Virus record (IMG/VR): IMGVR_UViG_3300020462_000036
Span: 1 to 27,182 of that record
Strand: one strand, 5' to 3'
Length of the DNA stretch: 27,182 nucleotides
Origin: a virus
A program made the translations under genes and the position numbers. Below the pieces are notes generated by a model. That model worked only from the letters and a program-made list of their open reading frames with translations. It was not told where the DNA came from and made no database searches. The stretch's first letter is position 1, and each line of letters starts with the position of its first letter. Below, one piece after another: positions 6,688 to 27,182 of the stretch.

Positions 6688-9600
6688 GTGAATGACTATG
6701 ACGAACAGTTGAGTGAAGGTACGCCTTCACATCTAAGTGAAGAAGAACAACTTCAAATACAAGCAGATCGTGAATTTTATGACCAGCTTGGGACATCAAC
6801 TGAACCTGAAGAGGTAACACAACCAGAAGCTGAAGCTACGGCTCCAGTACAAGAAGAGCAAGCTCAGCCTGTACAACAAGAAGTTCAACCAACAGAAGAA
6901 CCACAACAGGCTGAAGCATTGCTAGACAATATGACTGGCAATGAAGTTCTTGATGAAAATCTACCTGAAGTAACTAAAGCCGGTTTGGCAATGGGTGCCG
7001 GAATTGCAGACTTTGCAGTTGATGCTTTTAACCTAGTTACCAGGCAAGAAGCAAGGAAAGTACCAGAGTTTGAAAATGAAGTAGCACAGAGCATGCGGGA
7101 GATGTCTTCTATTGTCCTGCCTACACTTGCACTGACTGGTTCAGGCTCAGCAGCTCTAGCGAGTAGAACTAAGAATATAAAGTTCTTAGCTGATCCATTT
7201 GTTAAATGGTTAGGTACTACAACATTTGGTGCTGGTGTAGGAGCTGCTGTGGACTACACAGTGGAGATTAACCAGACAGATGATAATGCCACTGGAATGC
7301 TTAAGAAGACGTTCCCAAGAACATGGGGATGGATACCTGACAACATCGCTACGATGGACACTGATAGTCCAGAAGTAAAGCGAATAAAGAATGTTGTGGA
7401 AGGTGTCTATCTAGGTGGTAGTAGTGACATGCTTGTAGGAGCACTGAAGTTTATAAAAAACCTAAGGGGTGCACATAGAGCAGCAAGTCACATTCCTGAA
7501 AATGAAAAAGCAGTCAAGTGGTTTTCTGAAAACGTAGAGATTAAAAACACACCTGAAGAAGTAGTAGAAGCATCTGCTGCGAAGAGATCTGCTGAACTAG
7601 ATGAAGTTGGTGGCTACAACTTGGAGAAGTCAGTCAATATTGATGATCCAGTTTTTGGATACCACGATATGTACGACTATACCGAACAAGGTATTAGGTC
7701 AGTAGATGATCTAGGAATTGTCGGTGCTTCTATTGATGTTGTACGTATCGATAAAAATTACGATAGTGTCTATGGTCGTGTCGGAAGTGTTGTATCAGAA
7801 GGTGCTATTAAGTTTGGTCTAGAAAGCAGTGCTAAACAACAGTTAATTATCACAGGACTAGCTGAAGGTCTGAAGGATGCTGGTGAGTATGGTTACAAAA
7901 CAGCTACAGGTAAATACATTAGCCATGCCGAGATAATGGAAACCGGTGCAAAGTTAGCTAATGACTTTTACCAAATGGACCTACAAGAGCTGCAGAGGAC
8001 CATCTATCCAGGCTCTGTATATCAAGGCAGAAACGTAGATACAAAGACACCAGAGCTGACTAGCGAAGCTTATGCAGGAGTCATGGGAGCTATTAAGAGC
8101 TACATGGATGACTTTATCAATATGGATCTGGCCAAGGCACAGGCATACGTAGGCACGTCTCTAGCTGGTCAAGTATCTGATATGGCGCAAGGTATGCGTC
8201 TTACTGAAGGAACCGCTGCTATTGACCGAGCACAGGAACAGATCTTAGATCGTGTTGAGTTTTTAATGGCTCAAAAAGGTATGACATCTTATGCAAGAGG
8301 TAAGGCATTAAACCAGCTAAATCTTTGGAATAGGATGACTGCAAAAGGATCTAAGGCATATGATCTTGCAGAGACTAAACGTCTTGAGAATTTAATCAAA
8401 GATGAAAAGAATGGTACTCTCAAAGCAATGGAGAGGATCAAGCAAGAGTCAAAGGAAACCATCGATAACCTAAGAGAAATTAGTAAAGAGCAGCCTGAGA
8501 TGCTTGCTCCAATAATGATGGGTTATGAGATGACTGACGGAAACATCAAAACCATTCATGCATTAAATGAGTATGTCAAGGAGTCCACAGGTGTATTGAG
8601 GAAAGCTTTTTACGATGGCAATCCTGAGATTCCTTCTGTGATCCTTAAAGGTTTTTATGCAAACCTATACAACTCAACACTAAGTGCAATTGCAACACCA
8701 ATTAAAGCTGGTATTTCAGCAACACACTTATTAGTCGAACGCCCTGTAAAGATTCTAGGTGGTGGGTTAACTGGTGGTGACATGGAGACGGTGCGTCGTG
8801 GGATGTATCAATACAAAAACATGAAAGCAGCAGTTGATAAGTCAACTGAATACATGAATCAAGTGTTTCAAAGGTCTGCTCTTGACCCTAATGTTGTACA
8901 AACCCGTGATGATCTTGGACTCAAGAACAAAGCACAGATGGACTTGCTGAATGCCTTTGCAGATGCGAAAGCGAAGCAAGGTGAATATGGTCCTCAAGCA
9001 TTGATGCAACAGGTTAGTGATATGAACGATTTAGCTAATCATCCTTGGCTTAGGTTCGGCACACGATCCATGCAGGCAACTGATGGCTTTACGAAGTCAA
9101 TGATTGCAGTAGCTGAAGCAAGAGCTAATGCATATGACATCGTGACCAATGGTGGCAAACTACCTTTAGATGAAGCAAAGGCAGATGAACTTGCTAATGA
9201 GTTCTATCAAAAGATGTTTAATGAAAAAGGCATCTTGAATAATAAAGCAGTAGACAATATTGCTGGAGAAATCTCGATGAACTTGGATAACAAGGGAACG
9301 AGAATGATGTCAGATGTCATTAACAGACTACCTCTTTTGAAGCCATTTATGTTGTTTACTAAAACACCACTAAATGAACTAGCACTATCCCTGAGCTACC
9401 GTCCAAGTAACCCAGTAAAGGTATTTCTTGAAGACTCTGCAGCATTTAAAGCACCATTTGAAGAAGTAAGTGGTGCTGAAGTAGAACAACTTTTGGCGGC
9501 TAGAGGCATTGAAGTTGGACCACATAATGCAAGAGCTAAATACAATGAGATTAGAGCTGACCTTAAAGGTAGGAGAGCATTAGGAAACATTGCTGTTACC

Positions 9601-21585: not shown

Positions 21586-21770
21586 TGCTTACTTATATCT
21601 CTTATATTAAGGGATTCTTTTCTGTTGTGGTCTTTAATTGTATTCAACCGGTGAATTGGGAGTCTTGTGCTCCTGTTCATGTCTGGTTGCCACCGTATAT
21701 TAATGATGCATACGTATTTTTAAGTGAAAAGCCGTACCAACAAGAACTAGAATACCTCGATAAATTTTGA
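21585..21770 (+). CDS. Hypothetical early protein, 61 aa
   Basis: I use ATG 21585, which shares a base with the previous TGA (TGATG); a TTG at 21582 would add one residue. The N-terminus is hydrophobic (LTYISYIKGFFSVVVFNCI), a possible short membrane helix, followed by a Trp/Pro-rich part (PVNWESCAPVHVWLPPY) and an acidic helix (QQELEYLDKF). The pairing with the upstream gene suggests translational coupling. Function unknown. Confidence 0.55.
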   Translation: MLTYISYIKGFFSVVVFNCIQPVNWESCAPVHVWLPPYINDAYVFLSEKPYQQELEYLDKF

Positions 21771-21794
21771 CATAATTTTGTCAACCCATATACG
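21767..21794 (+). promoter_or_regulatory. Candidate sigma-70 promoter with -35 inside an inverted repeat
   Basis: A consensus TTGACA (21767-21772), overlapping the stop codon of the preceding gene, lies 16 bases before TATACG (21789-21794, four of six matches). TTGACA and TGTCAA (21779-21784) form a perfect 6-bp inverted repeat with a 6-base spacer, so a repressor could cover the -35. It would drive the leader and the small genes from 21999 onward using host RNA polymerase. Confidence 0.45.
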
Positions 21795-21874
21795 CAGGGG
21801 CAGGGACGCAATTTACCCCATAGGGGGGTGCTTATTGCCGCATTAGACTGCTAGTGGCGTGCAAAACACTGCTA

Positions 21875-21894
21875 AGTAACACGAATTCGTTACT
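21875..21894 (+). other. Alternative-fold palindrome in the 21771-21998 leader
   Basis: AGTAAC (21875-21880) pairs with GTTACT (21889-21894), while the inner ACGAATTCGT (21881-21890) is itself a perfect 10-bp palindrome, so two exclusive folds are possible. The surrounding leader also has a CCCC-ATA-GGGG hairpin near 21820-21832. No ORF of useful length is present in 21771-21998. Confidence 0.4.
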
Positions 21895-21998
21895 ATTACG
21901 TGCCGCTATCGCTCACTCAATTTTCACCAATCTGTCGCGCCAATATAATTTAATCTTCACAATCACCACGGACTGATAACATTAACTAATGACTAACT

Positions 21999-22192: not shown

Positions 22193-22204
22193 TTCACAAG
22201 TGGA
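22193..22204. promoter_or_regulatory. Palindromic site 1 (TTCACAAGTGGA)
   Basis: Matches TCCAC-NN-GTGGA with one mismatch. It is one of six related 12-mers between here and 26102. Confidence 0.5.
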
Positions 22205-22216
22205 CAGTCAACAAAG
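22195..22216 (+). repeat. 22-bp direct repeat, copy 1
   Basis: CACAAGTGGACAGTCAACAAAG-type repeat; it differs from copy 2 at one base (A or G at the 17th position). The copies start exactly 100 bp apart. Confidence 0.85.
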
Positions 22217-22292
22217 AGGCACAGCACCGCTTGAAATCCATTGCGTTTAGTGCCATACTATGAGAGTCAAAGGAAGCGCACCTCACCTAGCT

Positions 22293-22304
22293 TCCACAAG
22301 TGGA
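22293..22304. promoter_or_regulatory. Palindromic site 2 (TCCACAAGTGGA)
   Basis: A perfect 5-bp-arm palindrome around AA, the best copy of the family, lying exactly 100 bp after site 1. Confidence 0.55.
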
Positions 22305-22316
22305 CAGTCAGCAAAG
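22295..22316 (+). repeat. 22-bp direct repeat, copy 2
   Basis: Second copy, with one base changed relative to the copy at 22195. Both copies include the right half of a TCCAC-NN-GTGGA palindrome and a GACAGTC motif. Confidence 0.85.
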
Positions 22317-22498
22317 TGTCCACTAAATCACCCAAAGCACCGCAAAAGCTGCTATGCTTACAGCATCGACAGTCAAGCACTACACACCAGCATCATTTGA
22401 CACAGCTTCAACTCTCATCACTCGACAGAAAACATCTTGTCTTAGGCAGCGTCGGCTACTACTTCTTTCTTTGTCATGACGACAGTCAAGACGACGAC

Positions 22499-22645
22499 AT
22501 GACACCAGCCGAGGCATATGAAGAGTACAGCAGCATGACAAACGAAGAGCTTATTCATGACTCTTCAGTCTTTGACATCTTTGAATCATGCGAAGACTAT
22601 TACAACTCTTATGAGTCATACATTCCTGCTGAGTATTCTCTTTAA
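22499..22645 (+). CDS. Highly acidic microprotein, 48 aa, no Lys or Arg
   Basis: I place the start at ATG 22499 (MTPAEAYEEYSSMTNEELIH), because the upstream part of the open frame does not look coding. The 48 residues contain 12 Asp/Glu, seven Tyr, one His and no Lys or Arg; Tyr34, 35, 38, 41 and 46 cluster near the C-terminus (EDYYNSYESY). Such composition is typical of DNA-mimic inhibitors, for example antirestriction or some anti-CRISPR proteins, but I know no specific family. It lies at the start of an early gene series behind a repeat-rich control region. No Shine-Dalgarno is visible. Confidence 0.6.
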   Translation: MTPAEAYEEYSSMTNEELIHDSSVFDIFESCEDYYNSYESYIPAEYSL

Positions 22646-22655
22646 GTCACAATCA

Positions 22656-22667
22656 TCCACTTATGGA
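22656..22667. promoter_or_regulatory. Palindromic site 3 (TCCACTTATGGA)
   Basis: Member of the 12-mer family, three bases upstream of a TTGACT -35-like box (22671-22676). It is preceded by CACAATCA, as is site 4. Confidence 0.55.
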
Positions 22668-22670
22668 CAA

Positions 22671-22698
22671 TTGACTATCTCCTTCTGCCATCTATATG
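22671..22698 (+). promoter_or_regulatory. Candidate sigma-70 promoter before the first KTSD gene
   Basis: TTGACT (22671-22676, five of six) is followed after 16 bases by TATATG (22693-22698, four of six). The palindromic site 3 sits directly upstream, where an activator or repressor could act. Confidence 0.4.
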
Positions 22699-22725
22699 TT
22701 GGCAGTATGAGGTAATCATTACCTC
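22685..22725 (+). other. Two hairpins in the leader of the KTSD gene
   Basis: CTGCCA/TGGCAG (22685-22705) is a perfect 6-bp stem with a 9-base loop. GAGGTAA/TTACCTC (22709-22725) is a perfect 7-bp stem with loop TCA, followed by TTTC. The second may be a weak terminator or an operator; both lie upstream of ATG 22747. Confidence 0.5.
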
Positions 22726-22746
22726 TTTCACTCTACTTATTTAATT

Positions 22747-22986
22747 ATGTTCTTCACTCCTTCAACTCGTAACGCTATTAAGTCTTCTGCTGTACAAAAT
22801 ATCGAAGTCAATCAATCAACCAATCAAGCTATTGTTACTTTCAACAGTGGTAAGCAATACCTTTACAGCGGTATTTGCGAAGATGCAATGTTCGACATCA
22901 TCTTTGGACAAGTCAAGTCATTCGGCAAGTGGGTTAACGCTTCTTGCATCAAAGACTCTGACGTTTCCGCTTTTGCTCTTGCTTGA
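22747..22986 (+). CDS. KTSD-domain-like protein 1, 79 aa
   Basis: The product follows the KTSD fold (PF13619): IKSSAVQNIEVNQSTNQAIV, then TFNSGKQYLYSGICEDAMFD, then GQVKSFGKWVNASCI. Hallmarks are a Ser-Ser start, the pattern FxxG-x-x-YxYSGI and the closing SFGKWVN. The domain is small and beta-rich, found alone in bacteria and phages and next to some tRNA or RNA enzymes; its biochemical role is not settled. It stands beside a related gene at 23029, so the pair probably arose by duplication. Leader hairpins and a candidate promoter precede it. Confidence 0.75.
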   Translation: MFFTPSTRNAIKSSAVQNIEVNQSTNQAIVTFNSGKQYLYSGICEDAMFDIIFGQVKSFGKWVNASCIKDSDVSAFALA

Positions 22987-23021
22987 GTTTCACTAACTAA
23001 CCTTTATTTATTCCACAATCA

Positions 23022-23033
23022 TCCACTTATGCA
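23022..23033. promoter_or_regulatory. Palindromic site 4 (TCCACTTATGCA), overlapping a start codon
   Basis: Shares TCCACTTATG with sites 3 and 5 and contains the ATG (23029) of the following gene. Binding here would block translation start or transcription elongation. Confidence 0.45.
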
Positions 23034-23295
23034 AAATCTTTTCTCTTTCAACGTTGTTTCCCGCAGTTCTTCTGCTGTTAATTCAATCACTACCGACTTA
23101 TTGGGTGGTGAGGTTCTTGTTGAATATAAGAATGGCGAGTGCTATTCCTATTCTAATGTTTCACGTCGTGCCATCTTGAATCTACTTCTCCAACCAAATC
23201 TTTCGCTTGGTTTCTGGGTTAATCACAATCTCCTTTTTTGTGATGCTAAGACTGCAACTTATGGCAGTTGTGAGCATCTTCAGTTTGCCTACTGA
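23029..23295 (+). CDS. KTSD-domain-like protein 2, 88 aa
   Basis: Reads SRSSSAVNSITTDLLGGEVL, then VEYKNGECYSYSNVSRRAIL, then LGFWVNHNLLFCDAKT. The arrangement, Ser-Ser-Ala, Val-x-Tyr-x-x-Gly-x-x-Tyr-x-Tyr-Ser, then GFWVN, parallels the preceding KTSD-like protein (SSAVQNIEV, FNSGKQYLYSG, FGKWVN). The two have diverged widely, and the C-terminal tail here is longer with a Cys-containing end (YGSCEHLQFAY). Start ATG 23029 lies within the palindromic motif. Function unknown. Confidence 0.7.
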   Translation: MQNLFSFNVVSRSSSAVNSITTDLLGGEVLVEYKNGECYSYSNVSRRAILNLLLQPNLSLGFWVNHNLLFCDAKTATYGSCEHLQFAY

Positions 23296-23334
23296 TTAAC
23301 ATTTATTTCCACAATCACTCTACCTTTCTTTATT

Positions 23335-23733
23335 ATGATTTCAATGCCGAATCCAGTCATCCTCAAAGAAACACCTTTGGAGGATTGGGAAGACTCACTC
23401 ACCTATCAAGATTCAGAACTATGGGAAGCAATCAACGACAGAGGTTCTGATTTTTATGATGCTACTCCAGAAGAGGCGAGAGCTTTTATGGATGAATTAG
23501 CAGAATATGGTATAACAACAGCAGAGCAATTTAATGATGCGCTGTTTTATATGACTAGTACATATCGTGCTGAAGCTGAGTTCGTTGAATACCTAGTCAC
23601 TGAATTAGATTGTCAAGAACTACCAGCATATCTTGTCATTGATTGGCAAGCAAGCTGGGACAGAAACTACCGTCACGATTTCTTTACTCTTACAAATAAA
23701 GATATCACGTTCTTCTTTCACAACAACTTCTAA
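23335..23733 (+). CDS. ArdA-like antirestriction protein (putative DNA mimic)
   Basis: A 132-residue acidic protein: about 28 Asp/Glu against seven Lys/Arg. The C-terminal third, EAEFVEYLVTELDCQELPAY followed by LVIDWQASWDRNYRHDFFTL and ending ITFFFHNNF, resembles the last domain of ArdA, which has an AEDFVED-type helix, a (I/F)DYExxxRDL segment and a final VFxNN. ArdA proteins imitate bent B-form DNA and block type I restriction enzymes. At 132 residues it is shorter than typical ArdA (about 160-170), so the first domain may be reduced. T7 keeps its own DNA mimic, Ocr, at the start of the early region, the equivalent place. ATG 23344 is an alternative start. Confidence 0.6.
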   Translation: MISMPNPVILKETPLEDWEDSLTYQDSELWEAINDRGSDFYDATPEEARAFMDELAEYGITTAEQFNDALFYMTSTYRAEAEFVEYLVTELDCQELPAYLVIDWQASWDRNYRHDFFTLTNKDITFFFHNNF

Positions 23734-23755
23734 TTAGTTTCTAATAACTATTCCA

Positions 23756-23767
23756 TCCACTTATGGA
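23756..23767. promoter_or_regulatory. Palindromic site 5 (TCCACTTATGGA), overlapping a start codon
   Basis: Identical to site 3 and extended to ATCCA-CTTA-TGGAT; it includes ATG 23763. Confidence 0.55.
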
Positions 23768-24110
23768 TGGTTTATTTTCCTTTGCCTCAAAATCTCACAC
23801 TCACCAGGGACGCAGTTCAATGCTTCAACAACCCAGCGTTATGTACACCTATTACATGCGTGACGCACAAACATTCTGGGCAAAGCATGACGACTCTATA
23901 AATGTCCATGACTTTGACGACAACCACATTTCAATTGGTGGCGTCGATGCTGACAACTTCTTCCGAGCATGTCGCAATGCTATGTGTTGCCATAACCCTT
24001 TGTTTGATGAATTGAAATCAAAGCACAATCGTGGATATGCGCAAGAAATGATTGACGCACTTCGAACATACTTAGAACCACAATCATCAGAGGTAACTGA
24101 AGATGAGTAA
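23763..24110 (+). CDS. Hypothetical early protein, 115 aa
   Basis: The frame opens MDGLFSFASKSHTHQGRSSM at 23763, inside the palindromic motif; ATG 23820 (MLQQPSVMYTYYMRDAQTFW) is a credible shorter start. The body has a Trp/Asp/His-rich part (TFWAKHDDSINVHDFDDNHI), a Cys pair (RACRNAMCCHNP) and an acidic end (SSEVTEDE). I recognise no family. The opening MDGLFSF resembles MQNLFSF of the protein at 23029, which shares the same leader motif, so the leader may have been copied together with the first codons. Confidence 0.6.
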   Translation: MDGLFSFASKSHTHQGRSSMLQQPSVMYTYYMRDAQTFWAKHDDSINVHDFDDNHISIGGVDADNFFRACRNAMCCHNPLFDELKSKHNRGYAQEMIDALRTYLEPQSSEVTEDE

Positions 24111-24225
24111 GTATCTAGTACTCCACACCAAGGACACAACGCGGCGCATCCTTAAACCAAAGGTGATGCGTAGTTTCTATCAACAACTCAGCCGCGGCCA
24201 CGTTTACATCGACTTCATCAAATGA
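24103..24225 (+). CDS. Basic microprotein, 40 aa
   Basis: ATG 24103 lies in the last codons of the previous gene; the product reads MSKYLVLHTKDTTRRILKPK and continues through an RGHVYIDFIK end. A simple beta-helix-beta pattern with many Arg and Lys. It overlaps the previous gene by 8 bases and the next by 4 (ATGA), as expected for coupled early genes. Function unknown. Confidence 0.55.
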   Translation: MSKYLVLHTKDTTRRILKPKVMRSFYQQLSRGHVYIDFIK

Positions 24226-24383
24226 CAATCACTGAACGCAATTACATGCAACAGAGACTACGTGATGAGATGTATCATCACGCCTTCCAAGCTGATTGGT
24301 GTCGTGAACAAATACTTGCTCTTACTCGTGAATACAAAGAGCAAAACCTTGACCTTTATAAAGAGATGTTTAATGCCAACTGA
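24222..24383 (+). CDS. Small helical protein, 53 aa
   Basis: Starts ATG 24222 (ATGA overlap with the previous stop). MTITERNYMQQRLRDEMYHH and then ADWCREQILALTREYKEQNL form an almost continuous charged helix, possibly coiled coil. It ends within the start of the next gene. Function unknown; the tight overlap on both sides is the main support. Confidence 0.55.
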   Translation: MTITERNYMQQRLRDEMYHHAFQADWCREQILALTREYKEQNLDLYKEMFNAN

Positions 24384-24489
24384 AACCACAATCATCCTCG
24401 CAGTTATTGGAATGTTAGGGCTATTTGCTACGGCAACAGTTTACCAGCGATCTAATCGCATCACATCACGTTACTACTCAAAAAAATGA
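24373..24489 (+). CDS. Single-pass membrane microprotein, 38 aa
   Basis: From ATG 24373 the product is MPTETTIILAVIGMLGLFAT then ATVYQRSNRITSRYYSKK: one membrane helix (about 7-23) and a basic cytoplasmic tail. An earlier in-frame start at 24262 would only add residues shadowing the previous gene. It overlaps its neighbours by 11 and 4 bases. It may act on the host membrane early in infection; no family is recognised. Confidence 0.6.
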   Translation: MPTETTIILAVIGMLGLFATATVYQRSNRITSRYYSKK

Positions 24490-24659
24490 CAACAGGAACT
24501 TATCTCGTCGCATGTCCTGCTCTTAATGAGCAAGAGATCGTGTATGGAATTGAAAATGCAAATGATGTTTGTTATGCAATGCATTACGAATCAGGACATT
24601 ATGCCTATGTCGAAGATTGGCTAGGACACACAGACATTGAGTATGGAGAACTTGACTAA
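24486..24659 (+). CDS. Acidic small protein, 57 aa, no Lys or Arg
   Basis: ATG 24486 overlaps the previous TGA (ATGA). The product, MTTGTYLVACPALNEQEIVY followed by GIENANDVCYAMHYESGHYA and ending in an Asp/Glu-rich tail (EDWLGHTDIEYGELD), contains 11 acidic residues and no Lys or Arg. The strand-loop-helix-strand look (TYLVAC, ANDVCYAMHY, HYAYVEDW) suggests a small compact alpha/beta fold. It may be a DNA-mimic or protein-binding inhibitor; no family is recognised. The next gene starts at its last base. Confidence 0.6.
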   Translation: MTTGTYLVACPALNEQEIVYGIENANDVCYAMHYESGHYAYVEDWLGHTDIEYGELD

Positions 24660-24760
24660 TGACACCAGCATTCATCACCTATCTAAAAAGCAAGCGTCGC
24701 CGCATGTCACGCCTCATCAAACAGAAAGAACATGCCCTTCAATATAAAGTTACTGACTAA
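24659..24760 (+). CDS. Basic microprotein, 33 aa
   Basis: The start ATG 24659 overlaps the previous TAA and the stop at 24760 overlaps the next ATG, each by one base. The product reads MTPAFITYLKSKRRRMSRLI then KQKEHALQYKVTD, a strongly basic amphipathic helix. Overlaps on both sides support it; function unknown. Confidence 0.5.
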   Translation: MTPAFITYLKSKRRRMSRLIKQKEHALQYKVTD

Positions 24761-24945
24761 TGATTAAAACTAAATCACTTGATGATGATTATTTCATCAA
24801 GAACGCAATGGCTTGTTTTATGCATCATTACCCAAAGCATAAGTTCGTTGCTATCTATCAAGACCTAATAAAGAAGGATTACATTGAGAAACCTGCATCA
24901 AAACCTCGTCCAGCAAGACGAAGAAAATCAAAAACAACTGTATAA
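24760..24945 (+). CDS. Small hypothetical protein with basic tail, 61 aa
   Basis: The product MIKTKSLDDDYFIKNAMACF continues through MHHYPKHKFVAIYQDLIKK and ends in a basic, Pro-containing tail (ASKPRPARRRKSKTTV). The first 45 residues look like two helices; the tail could bind nucleic acid. It overlaps the previous gene by one base and the next by 62 bases in another frame. Function unknown. Confidence 0.6.
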   Translation: MIKTKSLDDDYFIKNAMACFMHHYPKHKFVAIYQDLIKKDYIEKPASKPRPARRRKSKTTV

Positions 24946-25108
24946 ACTTCCACACTCACCGCTCCAAGAATACATTGTCACGCTATCAAATGCTGAGTCG
25001 ATTTACATCTTGGCTCGTAACTCCATGGACGCAGCATATAACGCGTTGGAACTATCAGAAGACAGACATTGCAAACTTATCGACGTACGACTTCGTGAAG
25101 AATGGTAA
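24884..25108 (+). CDS. Small early protein, 74 aa, TTG start
   Basis: TTG 24884 is preceded at good distance by AAGAAGGA (24870-24877), a sound ribosome site. The product has a Gln-rich beginning (MRNLHQNLVQQDEENQKQLY) and then a compact unit, EYIVTLSNAESIYILARNSM followed by DAAYNALELSED and an Asp/Arg-rich end. The pattern V-x-L-S-(N/D)-A ... A-(R/D)-x-x-x-x-A-A-Y-x-A-L-E-L resembles small cyanophage proteins of unknown role. It starts inside the previous gene and ends inside the next. Confidence 0.6.
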   Translation: MRNLHQNLVQQDEENQKQLYKLPHSPLQEYIVTLSNAESIYILARNSMDAAYNALELSEDRHCKLIDVRLREEW

Positions 25109-25418
25109 AAAGAAATACTTCAGGAATAACTGGAGTAAATGGAAAGCAGTTCCCGATGAGTTCTTTGAACCCATAGATTTCGATGAAATTATGGAATGGA
25201 AGGTGGCAGGTTGGGAGCTGCCCATGGACGTGGTTTGTCTAATCAGGGCAACCAATAAAGACACAAAGAAAGTCAAAGAGTTTGTCTACAAGCAACGCAA
25301 GGCAGCAGACAACCGAATCAAACAATTAACGCAAGATCAAAAACTTGAACTCTGTATCACCACTCATGAAGCACAGCACTACCTCAGCTACGAAGACGAT
25401 GACGAGGGGGACATTTAA
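25095..25418 (+). CDS. Conserved cyanophage-type hypothetical protein, 107 aa
   Basis: I start at GTG 25095 (MKNGKKKYFRNNWSKWKAVP); an open frame reaches back to TTG 24975 but that part overlaps the previous gene and looks non-coding. The core, PDEFFEPIDFDEIMEWKVAG then WELPMDVVCLIRATNKDTKK then VKEFVYKQRKAADNRI, is a form I recall from cyanopodoviruses (a KxAGWELP...VCC-IR-x-x-x-x-x-T-x-K-V-x-E-Y-V-Y signature). The tail is acidic (SYEDDDEGDI). Function unknown; the beta-hairpin 'V-CLIRA ... KEFVYKQR' suggests a small binding domain. Confidence 0.65.
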   Translation: MKNGKKKYFRNNWSKWKAVPDEFFEPIDFDEIMEWKVAGWELPMDVVCLIRATNKDTKKVKEFVYKQRKAADNRIKQLTQDQKLELCITTHEAQHYLSYEDDDEGDI

Positions 25419-25548
25419 CTTCCTTTGCGACACCTTGTTTGAAGAGATTCAAATGCATGTTTATCGAAATGAACTAATCACACTCATGCAGCAACAAATG
25501 GAAGATGATATTACCTACAACTACACGGAGCCATGTGTCAAGACCTAA
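25399..25548 (+). CDS. Small hypothetical protein, 49 aa
   Basis: ATG 25399 begins inside the acidic tail of the previous gene. The product is MTRGTFNFLCDTLFEEIQMH followed by a helix (VYRNELITLMQQQMEDD) and a Tyr/Thr-rich end. An earlier start at 25345 would only shadow the previous frame. The 20-base overlap is in keeping with this cluster. Function unknown. The 94 bases after it hold no gene and are AT-rich. Confidence 0.5.
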   Translation: MTRGTFNFLCDTLFEEIQMHVYRNELITLMQQQMEDDITYNYTEPCVKT

Positions 25549-25642
25549 TTGGTATTAATTTATTGCAATAAAAATAGTTATTTCTACTCATTACATATGT
25601 AACACCATGGACATAACCTAAGAATCATTCTCAGTGACCTAG

Positions 25643-25972
25643 TTGAAACGTGTTGTGGTCACTATGTCTGATACATGTGCAGCCCTGCTTAAAAGCTACG
25701 CAGCGCAATGGGGTATGACTCAAAGTGATGTTCTGTATGAATGTTGCCGTCATCACATTCATGCTCAAGCACGAAGTGGATGCAAAGCGACGCTAAACCT
25801 TCTTGACATTCACTGCATCAAATTAGACAAACGTGCATCTAAAGACTGCTATGGATACGCATGTCGTGTTTGTAAGCATGACAAGAAATGTCGTGTTGGC
25901 TTACATAAAGGATTATGGGAGTGCGATCAACGTTACAAACATTTATTGACTCCACACATTGAGCCTGAGTGA
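25643..25972 (+). CDS. Ribbon-helix-helix-like regulator with Cys-rich C-terminus
   Basis: TTG 25643 gives KRVVVTMSDTCAALLKSYAA then QWGMTQSDVLYECCRHHI, the beta strand, helix, turn (Trp-Gly-Met-Thr-Gln-Ser) and helix expected of a ribbon-helix-helix DNA-binding domain. ATG 25664 would lose the strand. The C-terminal half has Cys69-x4-Cys74-x2-Cys77-x5-Cys83-x10-Cys94, a likely metal site (zinc or iron-sulphur). Ten cysteines in 109 residues is unusual. It stands just before a MarR-like gene and an integrase, so a role in the lysis/lysogeny or early/late switch is plausible; it is also a candidate to bind the palindromic sites. No clear ribosome site. Confidence 0.65.
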   Translation: MKRVVVTMSDTCAALLKSYAAQWGMTQSDVLYECCRHHIHAQARSGCKATLNLLDIHCIKLDKRASKDCYGYACRVCKHDKKCRVGLHKGLWECDQRYKHLLTPHIEPE

Positions 25973-26064
25973 TCCAACAAGGCTTAGCAGCTTTAGTCTT
26001 AACAAGTCCACAACAATTACTTAATGACCATTTTGTCCGTCGGGAACTTTTATCTCGGCACTGA
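25969..26064 (+). CDS. Micro-ORF, 31 aa, GTG start
   Basis: GTG 25969 overlaps the previous TGA (GTGA), and the frame runs MIQQGLAALVLTSPQQLLND then HFVRRELLSRH. An amphipathic helix followed by a basic helix. The stop-start overlap and regular composition support it, but the length is small and no ribosome site of its own is seen. Function unknown. Confidence 0.35.
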   Translation: MIQQGLAALVLTSPQQLLNDHFVRRELLSRH

Positions 26065-26090
26065 TAAGCGACGCTTTACTAACGTATCCA

Positions 26091-26102
26091 TCCATTTGTG
26101 GA
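26091..26102. promoter_or_regulatory. Palindromic site 6 (TCCATTTGTGGA)
   Basis: One mismatch to TCCAC-NN-GTGGA; it lies 34 bases upstream of the MarR-like gene start, where an autoregulator would bind. Confidence 0.5.
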
Positions 26103-26135
26103 AAATTAGTCTAGAGTGGGGGAGTCCTGCACCAC

Positions 26136-26531
26136 TTGATTTTGGAACCGCTGCGCGGGCTAGTCACCGATGAATCAGCGTTAGCTGTATTCAAAGCAAT
26201 TGAACTCATCCGTGAACTAACACCGGACGGGAACATGCCAATGCAAGCGTTGCAATGCTTCCTTTATGTCTGCTCCCATGACAACTGCCATAAGGCAAAG
26301 ATGGAGCAAGACCTAGGACTCAGCGTTGCATCAGGCAGCCGTAACACTGATTACTTATGTAGTCAGAACAGACTCAAGAAAGCAGGACTCAACCTAATTA
26401 CAAAGGAGGTAGAGCCAGCTCAACATGGACGCAGATTAATTCTGCGACTGACGCCGTTAGGTGTTCGTATTAAAAACGACTTACTTAATGAATTAAATGG
26501 ACTTCACAATCATACCGGCGACGGTATATGA
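26136..26531 (+). CDS. MarR-like winged-helix regulator
   Basis: The 131-residue protein starts at TTG 26136, eleven bases behind a GGGGGAG ribosome site (26118-26124). It has the order of a MarR-type domain: a first helix (ALAVFKAIELIREL), NMPMQALQCFLYVCSHDNCH (helix with the typical 'MP-x-Q-A-x-x-F-L-Y-V'), a recognition part (KMEQDLGLSVASGSRNTDYL) and a wing (LITKEVEPAQHGRRLILRLTPLG). The recurring 'D-(P/A)-x-x-x-R-R-x-I-L-R-L-T-x-x-G' end is classical. It overlaps the integrase gene by 35 bases, so the two are co-expressed. Site 6 of the palindrome family lies just upstream. MarR-like proteins precede integrase or RNA polymerase genes in some cyanopodoviruses. Confidence 0.75.
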   Translation: MILEPLRGLVTDESALAVFKAIELIRELTPDGNMPMQALQCFLYVCSHDNCHKAKMEQDLGLSVASGSRNTDYLCSQNRLKKAGLNLITKEVEPAQHGRRLILRLTPLGVRIKNDLLNELNGLHNHTGDGI

Positions 26532-27182
26532 GAAACCTGAGAAAATCACCAAGTTCTCTCAAGGCTTCCACCACACGCTTCAGACATTGCCAACATGGCG
26601 AGAGTCAGATGCAGGTGGCAACGGTAACAACATCCGAAACTTCAAAAAGTTGTTGGATACAAAACAAGGTGGTTGGGGTGACCCTCCATTGTTAATGATC
26701 AACCATGATTTTGTGCATGAAACAATTGCCGAAATCAAGGAGTACACACACAACTCAAATGCCACGTTGAACCGTGCCATCTCAACAATCAAAAAGGTAA
26801 TGACCTTGTGTGCCAGGAGTGGCTACATCCAAGGCGTACCTGTCATCGAGAAACTATCTGAAACAAAACGTCGTCGTCCTGCTCGCTATTCCAAGGACCA
26901 GGTTGATCGTCTTGTTCAGATAGCCCGTGAACGTGGTGATGATGCAATGGCGGAAGCCATCCTGCTAAGCGCCTACAGCGGCCTCAGACAAGCCGAATGC
27001 CGTCGCTTGCACGTTGATGACATCGACTGGAGAAACAACGTGTTGTTGGTCGGTGGCACCGCTGACACGCGCACCAAAGGTCGCAACTACCGCGAGGTTC
27101 CAATCCATCCAAAGCTTGAGTCACTACTCAAAGCTCGGACAGGGTTAGACCGTGGCTACCACGACATCATCTTTGATGAGTT
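26497..27182 (+). CDS. int: Tyrosine recombinase / integrase, 3' partial
   Basis: ATG 26497 opens a frame of 228 codons that runs off the window. Residues 60-125 form a SAM-like core-binding domain (helix LNRAISTIKKVMTLCARSGY). The catalytic domain begins near 130: SKDQVDRLVQIARERGDD, then AILLSAYSGLRQAECRRLHV with catalytic Arg164, then TRTKGRNYREVPIHP with the beta-hairpin Lys194. The HxxR and Tyr boxes lie beyond the edge. An integrase just before the RNA polymerase gene is known in P-SSP7-like cyanophages. The region is much richer in G+C (36 of 60 bases at 26941-27000) than the late genes. It overlaps the MarR-like gene and is likely controlled with it. Confidence 0.93.
   Translation, partial: MDFTIIPATVYEKPEKITKFSQGFHHTLQTLPTWRESDAGGNGNNIRNFKKLLDTKQGGWGDPPLLMINHDFVHETIAEIKEYTHNSNATLNRAISTIKKVMTLCARSGYIQGVPVIEKLSETKRRRPARYSKDQVDRLVQIARERGDDAMAEAILLSAYSGLRQAECRRLHVDDIDWRNNVLLVGGTADTRTKGRNYREVPIHPKLESLLKARTGLDRGYHDIIFDE

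Follow-up and report, generated by a model that had tools for sequence, protein, structure and literature searches.

The window analysed here, the whole 27,182-nucleotide stretch of IMG/VR record IMGVR_UViG_3300020462_000036, runs through late genes and the terminase into the left end of a T7-like cyanophage. Its early region carries two KTSC-like genes, a gene for a ribbon-helix-helix (RHH)-like protein, a MarR-like regulator gene and an integrase gene (Table 1). A first, sequence-only reading had described six copies of a 12-bp palindrome in this region, which we number as sites 1 to 6, and all six are found, at 22193, 22293, 22656, 23022, 23756 and 26091. Four (22293, 22656, 23756 and 26091, thus all at 22.2-26.1 kb) are exact copies of TCCAYNNRTGGA, compared with 0.077 expected from dinucleotide shuffles, none of 300 of which reached four; those at 22193 and 23022 each have one mismatch. 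The complete relative G001 (IMGVR_UViG_3300048065_000509; 45,325 bp once a 121-bp end overlap is removed) has six exact copies against 0.117 expected (0 of 300 shuffles reached six), which fall within about 4.3 kb once the two ends of the contig (44.4-45.3 and 0-3.2 kb) are joined, with no exact copy in its remaining 41 kb. In a count of every palindrome made of two 4-bp arms around a 4-bp gap, TCCA/TGGA was the sole one repeated in the early region of the window (4 vs 0 elsewhere), and in the early region of G001 it far outnumbered any other (6 vs 4 elsewhere). We conclude that the palindrome is genuine, that its enrichment is strong and that it keeps to the early region. Significance is nevertheless limited to the near-exact core, since a pattern allowing two mismatches is no commoner in the window than chance (40 vs 33 expected). 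The statement that the 21 kb of late genes lack sites likewise holds for exact copies, of which there are none, but not for one-mismatch copies, of which there are three (170, 8584 and 16590), so a loose match to the palindrome is not diagnostic.

The core, TCCAY-NN-RTGGA with a free centre, has the 5-2-5 layout of MarR-type operators, and the full form is about YRTCCAY-NN-RTGGAYR. The clade that bears it is known here from metagenomic contigs alone, and in these relatives sites 1 to 5 are syntenic, as exact or near matches; for sites 3, 4 and 5 this is so wherever the relatives' sequence extends that far. The first two sites belong to two tandem promoter modules, M1 and M2, which we aligned in nine phages (the window, L007, G001, L113, L116, L117, L118, L119 and L107) and whose transcription starts were inferred from sequence. 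The distance from the centre of site 1 to the centre of the -10 box is 57-58 bp in all nine, and that from site 2 is 56-57 bp; site 1 itself is exact in G001, L113, L116, L117, L119 and L107. M2 has a third half-site, TGTCCAC or CGTCCAC in nine of nine phages, and most of the nine carry CACCCAAAG at its -35 position. The 22-bp block around its -10 box is identical in most relatives and also lies 17 bp behind TTGACT in other phage contigs (L115:11225, L120:5200 and L121:5621), which supports M2 as a host-type promoter; this block is perhaps a strong early promoter shared among cyanophages. The -10 box of M1 was also matched in a promoter-like scan, the matches of which were overall not above chance. 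With their spacing retained, M1 and M2 look like an old tandem duplication. They resemble A1-A3 of T7, which are also tandem host-type promoters near the left end, although to our knowledge the T7 promoters lack such operators.

Further sites lie beyond the reach of the window. About 10 relatives have a TATYCACNNGTGRATA-type palindrome about 40-60 nt ahead of the phage RNA polymerase gene, and TATCCACTAAAGGACA occupies a similar position in front of the RNA polymerase gene of P-SSP7. These RNA polymerase-leader sites keep the half-site consensus and not the pairing, with C-A mismatches in four of the approximately 10. At the junction between the RNA polymerase stop and the ssb start, L007 (10437-10463) carries the insertion ACCATCCATTAATGGATGAATTATATTT and L016 a variant of it; the palindrome there is a 29-nt insertion in these two close relatives, absent from G001 and others, and is apparently a recently gained, operator-like one. 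In L010, L011, L023 and others, extra sites within int and the RNA polymerase gene were set aside by eye as coding coincidences. A reading of the palindrome as a DnaA box was also rejected by eye, given that TCCACTTATGGA contains neither TCCACA nor TGTGGA.

Table 1. Positions of the palindromic sites, putative promoter elements and genes in the early region of the window
Feature	Position	Strand	Details
Site 1, candidate operator of M1	22193..22204		TTCACAAGTGGA; in relatives TCCATCAATGGA, TCCATCAGTGGA, TCCACCAGTGGA
M1 -10 box, putative	22254..22259	+	TGC-CATACT (extended -10), TTGAAA at 22231; aligned in nine phages
Site 2, candidate operator of M2	22293..22304		TCCACAAGTGGA; perfect
Third half-site of M2	22317..22323		TGTCCAC; forms GTGGACA-N10-TGTCCAC with site 2
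Conserved block of M2	22329..22337	+	CACCCAAAG; at the -35 position, replacing TTGACA; nine-phage alignment
M2 -10 box, putative	22353..22358	+	TGC-TATGCT-TACAGCATCGACA; within the 22-bp block TGCTATGCTTACAGCATCGACA
Site 3, candidate operator between early genes	22656..22667		TCCACTTATGGA; exact or one mismatch in relatives
Inverted repeat	22709..22725	+	GAGGTAATCATTACCTC; just past site 3, ahead of the first KTSC-like gene
First KTSC-like early gene	22747..22986	+	phrog_7365; weak KTSC match below cut-off
Site 4, degenerate candidate operator	23022..23033		TCCACTTATGCA; overlaps the second KTSC-like gene at its start codon
Second KTSC-like early gene	23029..23295	+	phrog_7365
Site 5, candidate operator, terminator-like	23753..23770		18-bp inverted repeat CCATCCACTTATGGATGG, then T-rich run; core 23756-23767
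RHH-like, Cys-rich early protein	25643..25972	+	Rejected as binder
Conserved small open reading frame	26024..26173	+	MTILSxGxFYLGxDK..FxxVSIHLWxI.LEW; overlaps the marR start
Site 6, core before marR	26091..26102		Spelled by the I-H-L-W codons of the small open reading frame
MarR-like regulator, proposed binder	26136..26531	+	phrog_9665 (transcriptional regulator), E 1e-27
Tyrosine integrase	26497..27180	+	PF00589, phrog_1; cut by the window end

The protein encoded at 26136 is the proposed binder. Its AlphaFold model, with a predicted local distance difference test score (pLDDT) of 81, is a winged helix with a helix-turn-helix, a wing and a C-terminal helix; the best-ranked Foldseek matches in the PDB belong to the MarR family (template modelling (TM) score about 0.5-0.64), and hmmsearch gives a match to 2eth (E 7e-4). 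This modelled winged helix-turn-helix fold places the protein in the MarR family. The DNA-contacting Arg of the recognition helix, which is R67 in the homologous pMarR of phage P-SSP7, is invariant within an SR(N)TD block of the alignments.

What connects this protein with the palindrome comes from host chromosomes, in which MarR homologs were found through a scan of genome contigs and searches of Prochlorococcus and Synechococcus genomes. The first six host loci all have an exact core upstream of the gene, at -155 (L125, the same as L133), -103 (L126, the same as L134), -80 (L139, L140 and L142) and -81 (L141). For 30 further orthologs the core lies 60-80 nt before the start in nearly all; 27 are exact, and of the remaining three, one differs at a single position and two apparently have their starts in the wrong place. 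Diverged host orthologs carry an exact core in seven of eight cases, the eighth having one mismatch. Overall, the core precedes the gene in about 35 of 38 orthologs and in two homologs that are more distant. Across these host sites the arms are constant, whilst the centre and flanks vary. The L139-type orthologs share descent, with L125, L126 and the phage modules being more independent. Six host genomes together hold nine copies of the 14-mer ATCCAYNNRTGGAT, five at the marR promoter and four within coding sequence, and since non-coding copies are found only at marR promoters, no wider host regulon is visible in these six genomes. The pattern reads as the phylogenetic footprint of an autoregulatory operator, and the stand-alone marR present in 51 of 266 genomes of one picocyanobacterial genus (L139-L142 and L158-L195) is apparently under autoregulation of this kind. 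Phage and host MarR proteins are 37-51% identical and have the SRxTD recognition block in common, and the host footprint transfers to the phage MarR by homology. Because this palindrome also precedes the related regulator genes of Prochlorococcus, it is very probably the site of the phage MarR as well. We put the probability that the palindrome set is the operator of the 26136 protein at roughly 0.8.

If this is the case, then a MarR-like dimer made from 26136 would bind TCCAY-NN-RTGGA operators upstream of the two early promoters (22193 and 22293), at early gene boundaries (22656, 23756 and, in degenerate form, 23022), at or before marR (26091) and, in relatives, ahead of the gene for RNA polymerase. 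MarR produced from the early transcript would bind back and adjust, most probably downwards, how strongly the host polymerase transcribes the early region and the RNA polymerase gene, the outcome being negative feedback or an early-to-middle switch. In T7 the early genes are shut off, a role comparable with that of the feedback suggested here. What we observe is the enrichment, the synteny, the fixed distance to the promoters and the presence of the palindrome before host marR orthologs, whereas binding itself, the direction of regulation and a part in lysogeny are inferred. As regards the sign, we lean slightly towards MarR binding repressing early transcription, and weigh repression at about 2 to 1 over activation.

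Several observations sit uneasily with this interpretation. The centre of the operators near -66 fits classical repression poorly, and site 5 can be explained as a terminator and site 6 by coding, as considered below. The rne promoter region, which is the sole host target probed for a homolog of this protein, has no site in 29 Prochlorococcus genomes, among which MED4 was not confirmed. In addition, P-SSP7, S-TIP37, S-CBP1, S-CBP3 and L024 encode a MarR that is 41-46% identical and has a similar recognition helix, yet they lack the core set. The count of palindromes revealed no comparable early set in P-SSP7, S-TIP37, S-CBP1, S-CBP3, P-SSP2, L024, L046 or L056, and no palindrome set shared by the first six of these. 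The sequence-only reading held that a lack of conservation in relatives would count against an operator set. No such lack is seen in the clade whose MarR is at least 68% identical, where the sites are conserved, but more distant phages (P-SSP7, S-TIP37, S-CBP1, S-CBP3, P-SSP2 and L024) are without the core set. Given this absence, it may be that specificity has drifted, that the binder differs in those phages or that the system is clade-specific. A sequence considered as the P-SSP7 variant and then rejected, TACAYNNRTGTA, lies upstream of the homologs in L122 (exact) and L135 (one mismatch), P-SSP7 itself having one-mismatch matches only. In L122 and L135, which have P-SSP7-like MarR homologs, a repeated TAC(A/C/T)TARGTGTA ahead of marR replaces the TCCAY core, and it is possible that the operator arm has drifted to TACAY in this type.

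The same operators and the same MarR could also serve activation, with the protein at about -66 of M1 and M2 recruiting host RNA polymerase through its alpha subunit and so giving self-amplifying early transcription from promoters without a good -35. This is in keeping with pMarR of P-SSP7, which pulls down RNA polymerase, contacts alpha in a yeast two-hybrid assay and raises reporter expression (PMC9692554). The operators also lie upstream of the core promoters, and M2 has CACCCAAAG in place of TTGACA together with an extended -10. However, initial early transcription must precede any phage MarR, and sites 3 and 5 and the polymerase-leader sites are inside or downstream of the transcription unit, which is unusual for activation. 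A position of -66 is, moreover, displaced by about half a helical turn from where classical class I activators bind, which also counts against an activator. We therefore regard activation as doubtful.

At site 5 a 7-bp hairpin is followed by a T-rich run, the RNA fold has a z of -3.9 and the arms read CTGTCC/GGACAG in L116, L117 and L107, changed yet complementary. By eye, distant phages also have UUCG-type-loop hairpins before the RNA polymerase gene. One could consider from this that the palindromes act as RNA hairpins, at which transcripts are processed or terminated between early genes in the manner of T7 RNase III sites. Sites of that kind would pair throughout, whereas a clear hairpin exists only at site 5; sites 1 and 2 are upstream of promoters at fixed spacing, the polymerase-leader sites lose pairing and, in L007, fold no better than shuffles, the central two bases vary freely, and the footprint at the host marR genes falls within promoter DNA. 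Taken together, this leaves hairpins as a very unlikely general explanation. Also very unlikely is the reading in which the sites are operators of the RHH protein encoded at 25643, the other binder that had been proposed, or belong to some host transcription factor outside the MarR family. In its favour, RHH genes are often found beside marR in the early region, and a host factor would already be there when infection begins. Operator-bearing phages, however, carry either the 25643-type RHH or an unrelated one (the latter in L007, L013, L018, L107 and L117), and both types also occur in operator-free phages (L024; L022, L029-L032 and L036). This interchange of unrelated genes, both kinds being found in phages without sites, rules out the RHH protein as the binder, whilst the restriction of non-coding 14-bp copies to marR promoters in six host genomes speaks against an unrelated host factor. 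Of the two proteins originally named as users of the operator set, it is thus MarR, with the same palindrome before its host homologs, that stands.

Site 3 reads as a true palindrome: L119 has TCCACTTGTGGA, with GTG in place of ATG, which shows that conservation does not rest on the ATG. The TTGACT box described as abutting it is present in the window but is not conserved, being TTGATT, TTGAAT and TTCTAT in L007, L119 and L118. In relatives with the second KTSC-like gene only TCCACT(T/A)ATG of site 4 is kept, and the right half is always broken by one base. Sites 4 and 5 had both been said to contain the ATG of the gene behind them. This is correct for site 4, which lies at a start codon, but the ATG of site 5 is probably no start, because G001 keeps the site with a different gene behind it.

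Site 6 does stand before the MarR-like gene, as the sequence-only reading had noted, but it does so inside a conserved open reading frame that overlaps the marR start, which weakens it as proof of autoregulation. This frame is recognisable across cyanopodoviruses, including S-TIP37 and P-SSP7, in which it is unannotated. The site is exact in all relatives that have Trp at the relevant codon; where Gly (GGT or GGC) is encoded instead, the palindrome is missing. Site 6 can be either a marR-proximal operator or a coincidence of the I-H-L-W codons, the latter leaving marR without a proximal operator. For coincidence, distant phages keep the homologous frame with IHLG and no palindrome, and the third-base C is common there too. 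The Gly-to-Trp change that creates the core is, on the other hand, unusual, occurs in all members of the operator-bearing clade and never outside it, and this clade specificity suggests a real operator. The balance is close to even, and we judge coincidence to be marginally the less probable of the two.

The switch suggested by the preferred reading, in which MarR binds these sites, could possibly be used for lysogeny. Both an integrase and a host-matching attachment site, as a lysogeny switch would call for, are present: relatives carry a half tRNA-Leu behind int, and the one in L007 (about 7844-7879, outside the window) agrees at 34 of 36 bases with tRNA-Leu-like DNA in two host genomes. We know of no lysogen of the operator-bearing clade. 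Whether the integrase-marR cassette serves lysogeny is an old question, and a defined operator that is shared by phage and host regulators would allow target-gene scans, reporters and tests of repression versus activation.

In the literature that we found, no operator for a cyanopodovirus marR is reported, though the gene is reported in many genomes. The closest characterised protein, pMarR of P-SSP7 (PSSP7_011, gp0.7), binds DNA as a dimer and contacts the alpha subunit of RNA polymerase; its reported effect is activation of host rne, and no operator motif is reported (PMC9692554). It is homologous to the 26136 protein (46% identity) and is encoded at the same place before int and RNA polymerase, but P-SSP7 differs in having no core palindrome set. 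The temperate T7-like phage LUZ100 similarly has a marR-int cassette, and its description, with the work cited there, offers the hypothesis that MarR binds around the RNA polymerase promoter, favouring lysogeny (PMC10134795). The window phage departs from that proposal in having a sequence-defined candidate operator, placed also at both early promoters and at gene boundaries, and in the backing of host orthologs. Operators of the MarR/SlyA type, such as TTAGCAAGCTAA for SlyA (PMC9692554), are likewise 12 bp with two 5-bp arms around 2 bp, and share the autoregulatory placement seen in hosts, but have another arm sequence and are not arrayed as multiple sites over a phage early region. Like the operators and stoperators of mycobacteriophages, the set described here is found at an early promoter and scattered gene boundaries. 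The stoperators of cluster A mycobacteriophages are, however, asymmetric, bound by a monomer and genome-wide, with 26 sites in the phage studied (PMC9283540), whereas the present set is symmetric, comprises about six to seven sites and is restricted to the early region.

The sharing of an operator between phage and host also raises the idea that a phage regulator was domesticated to give the stand-alone marR genes on Prochlorococcus chromosomes, or that those genes gave rise to the phage one, and that when a phage comes in, its early promoters are a direct target of host MarR. We think this unlikely, but if true, host MarR would be a one-gene immunity against operator-bearing cyanophages, or else a host factor that the phage exploits.

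Some further features of the early region may be mentioned. A conserved element at 21765-21819, TTTTGACAnAAAT...GGACGC...CCCC, is found at the terminal-repeat start in many cyanopodoviruses; we take it as that start judging from the ends of the S-TIP37 record, and it may be a packaging or promoter signal. M1 and M2 lie about 430-590 bp beyond it. At 21852-21908, within the presumed terminal repeat, there are nested inverted repeats (AGTGGC..GCCACT and AGTAAC..GTTACT) that are kept in L007 and G001. The inverted repeat just past site 3 is kept with changes in L012, as GAGGTATTCTTACCTC, and an early gene at 23335-23733 has weak similarity to ArdA and anti-restriction proteins (phrog_36653; PF07275 below cut-off).

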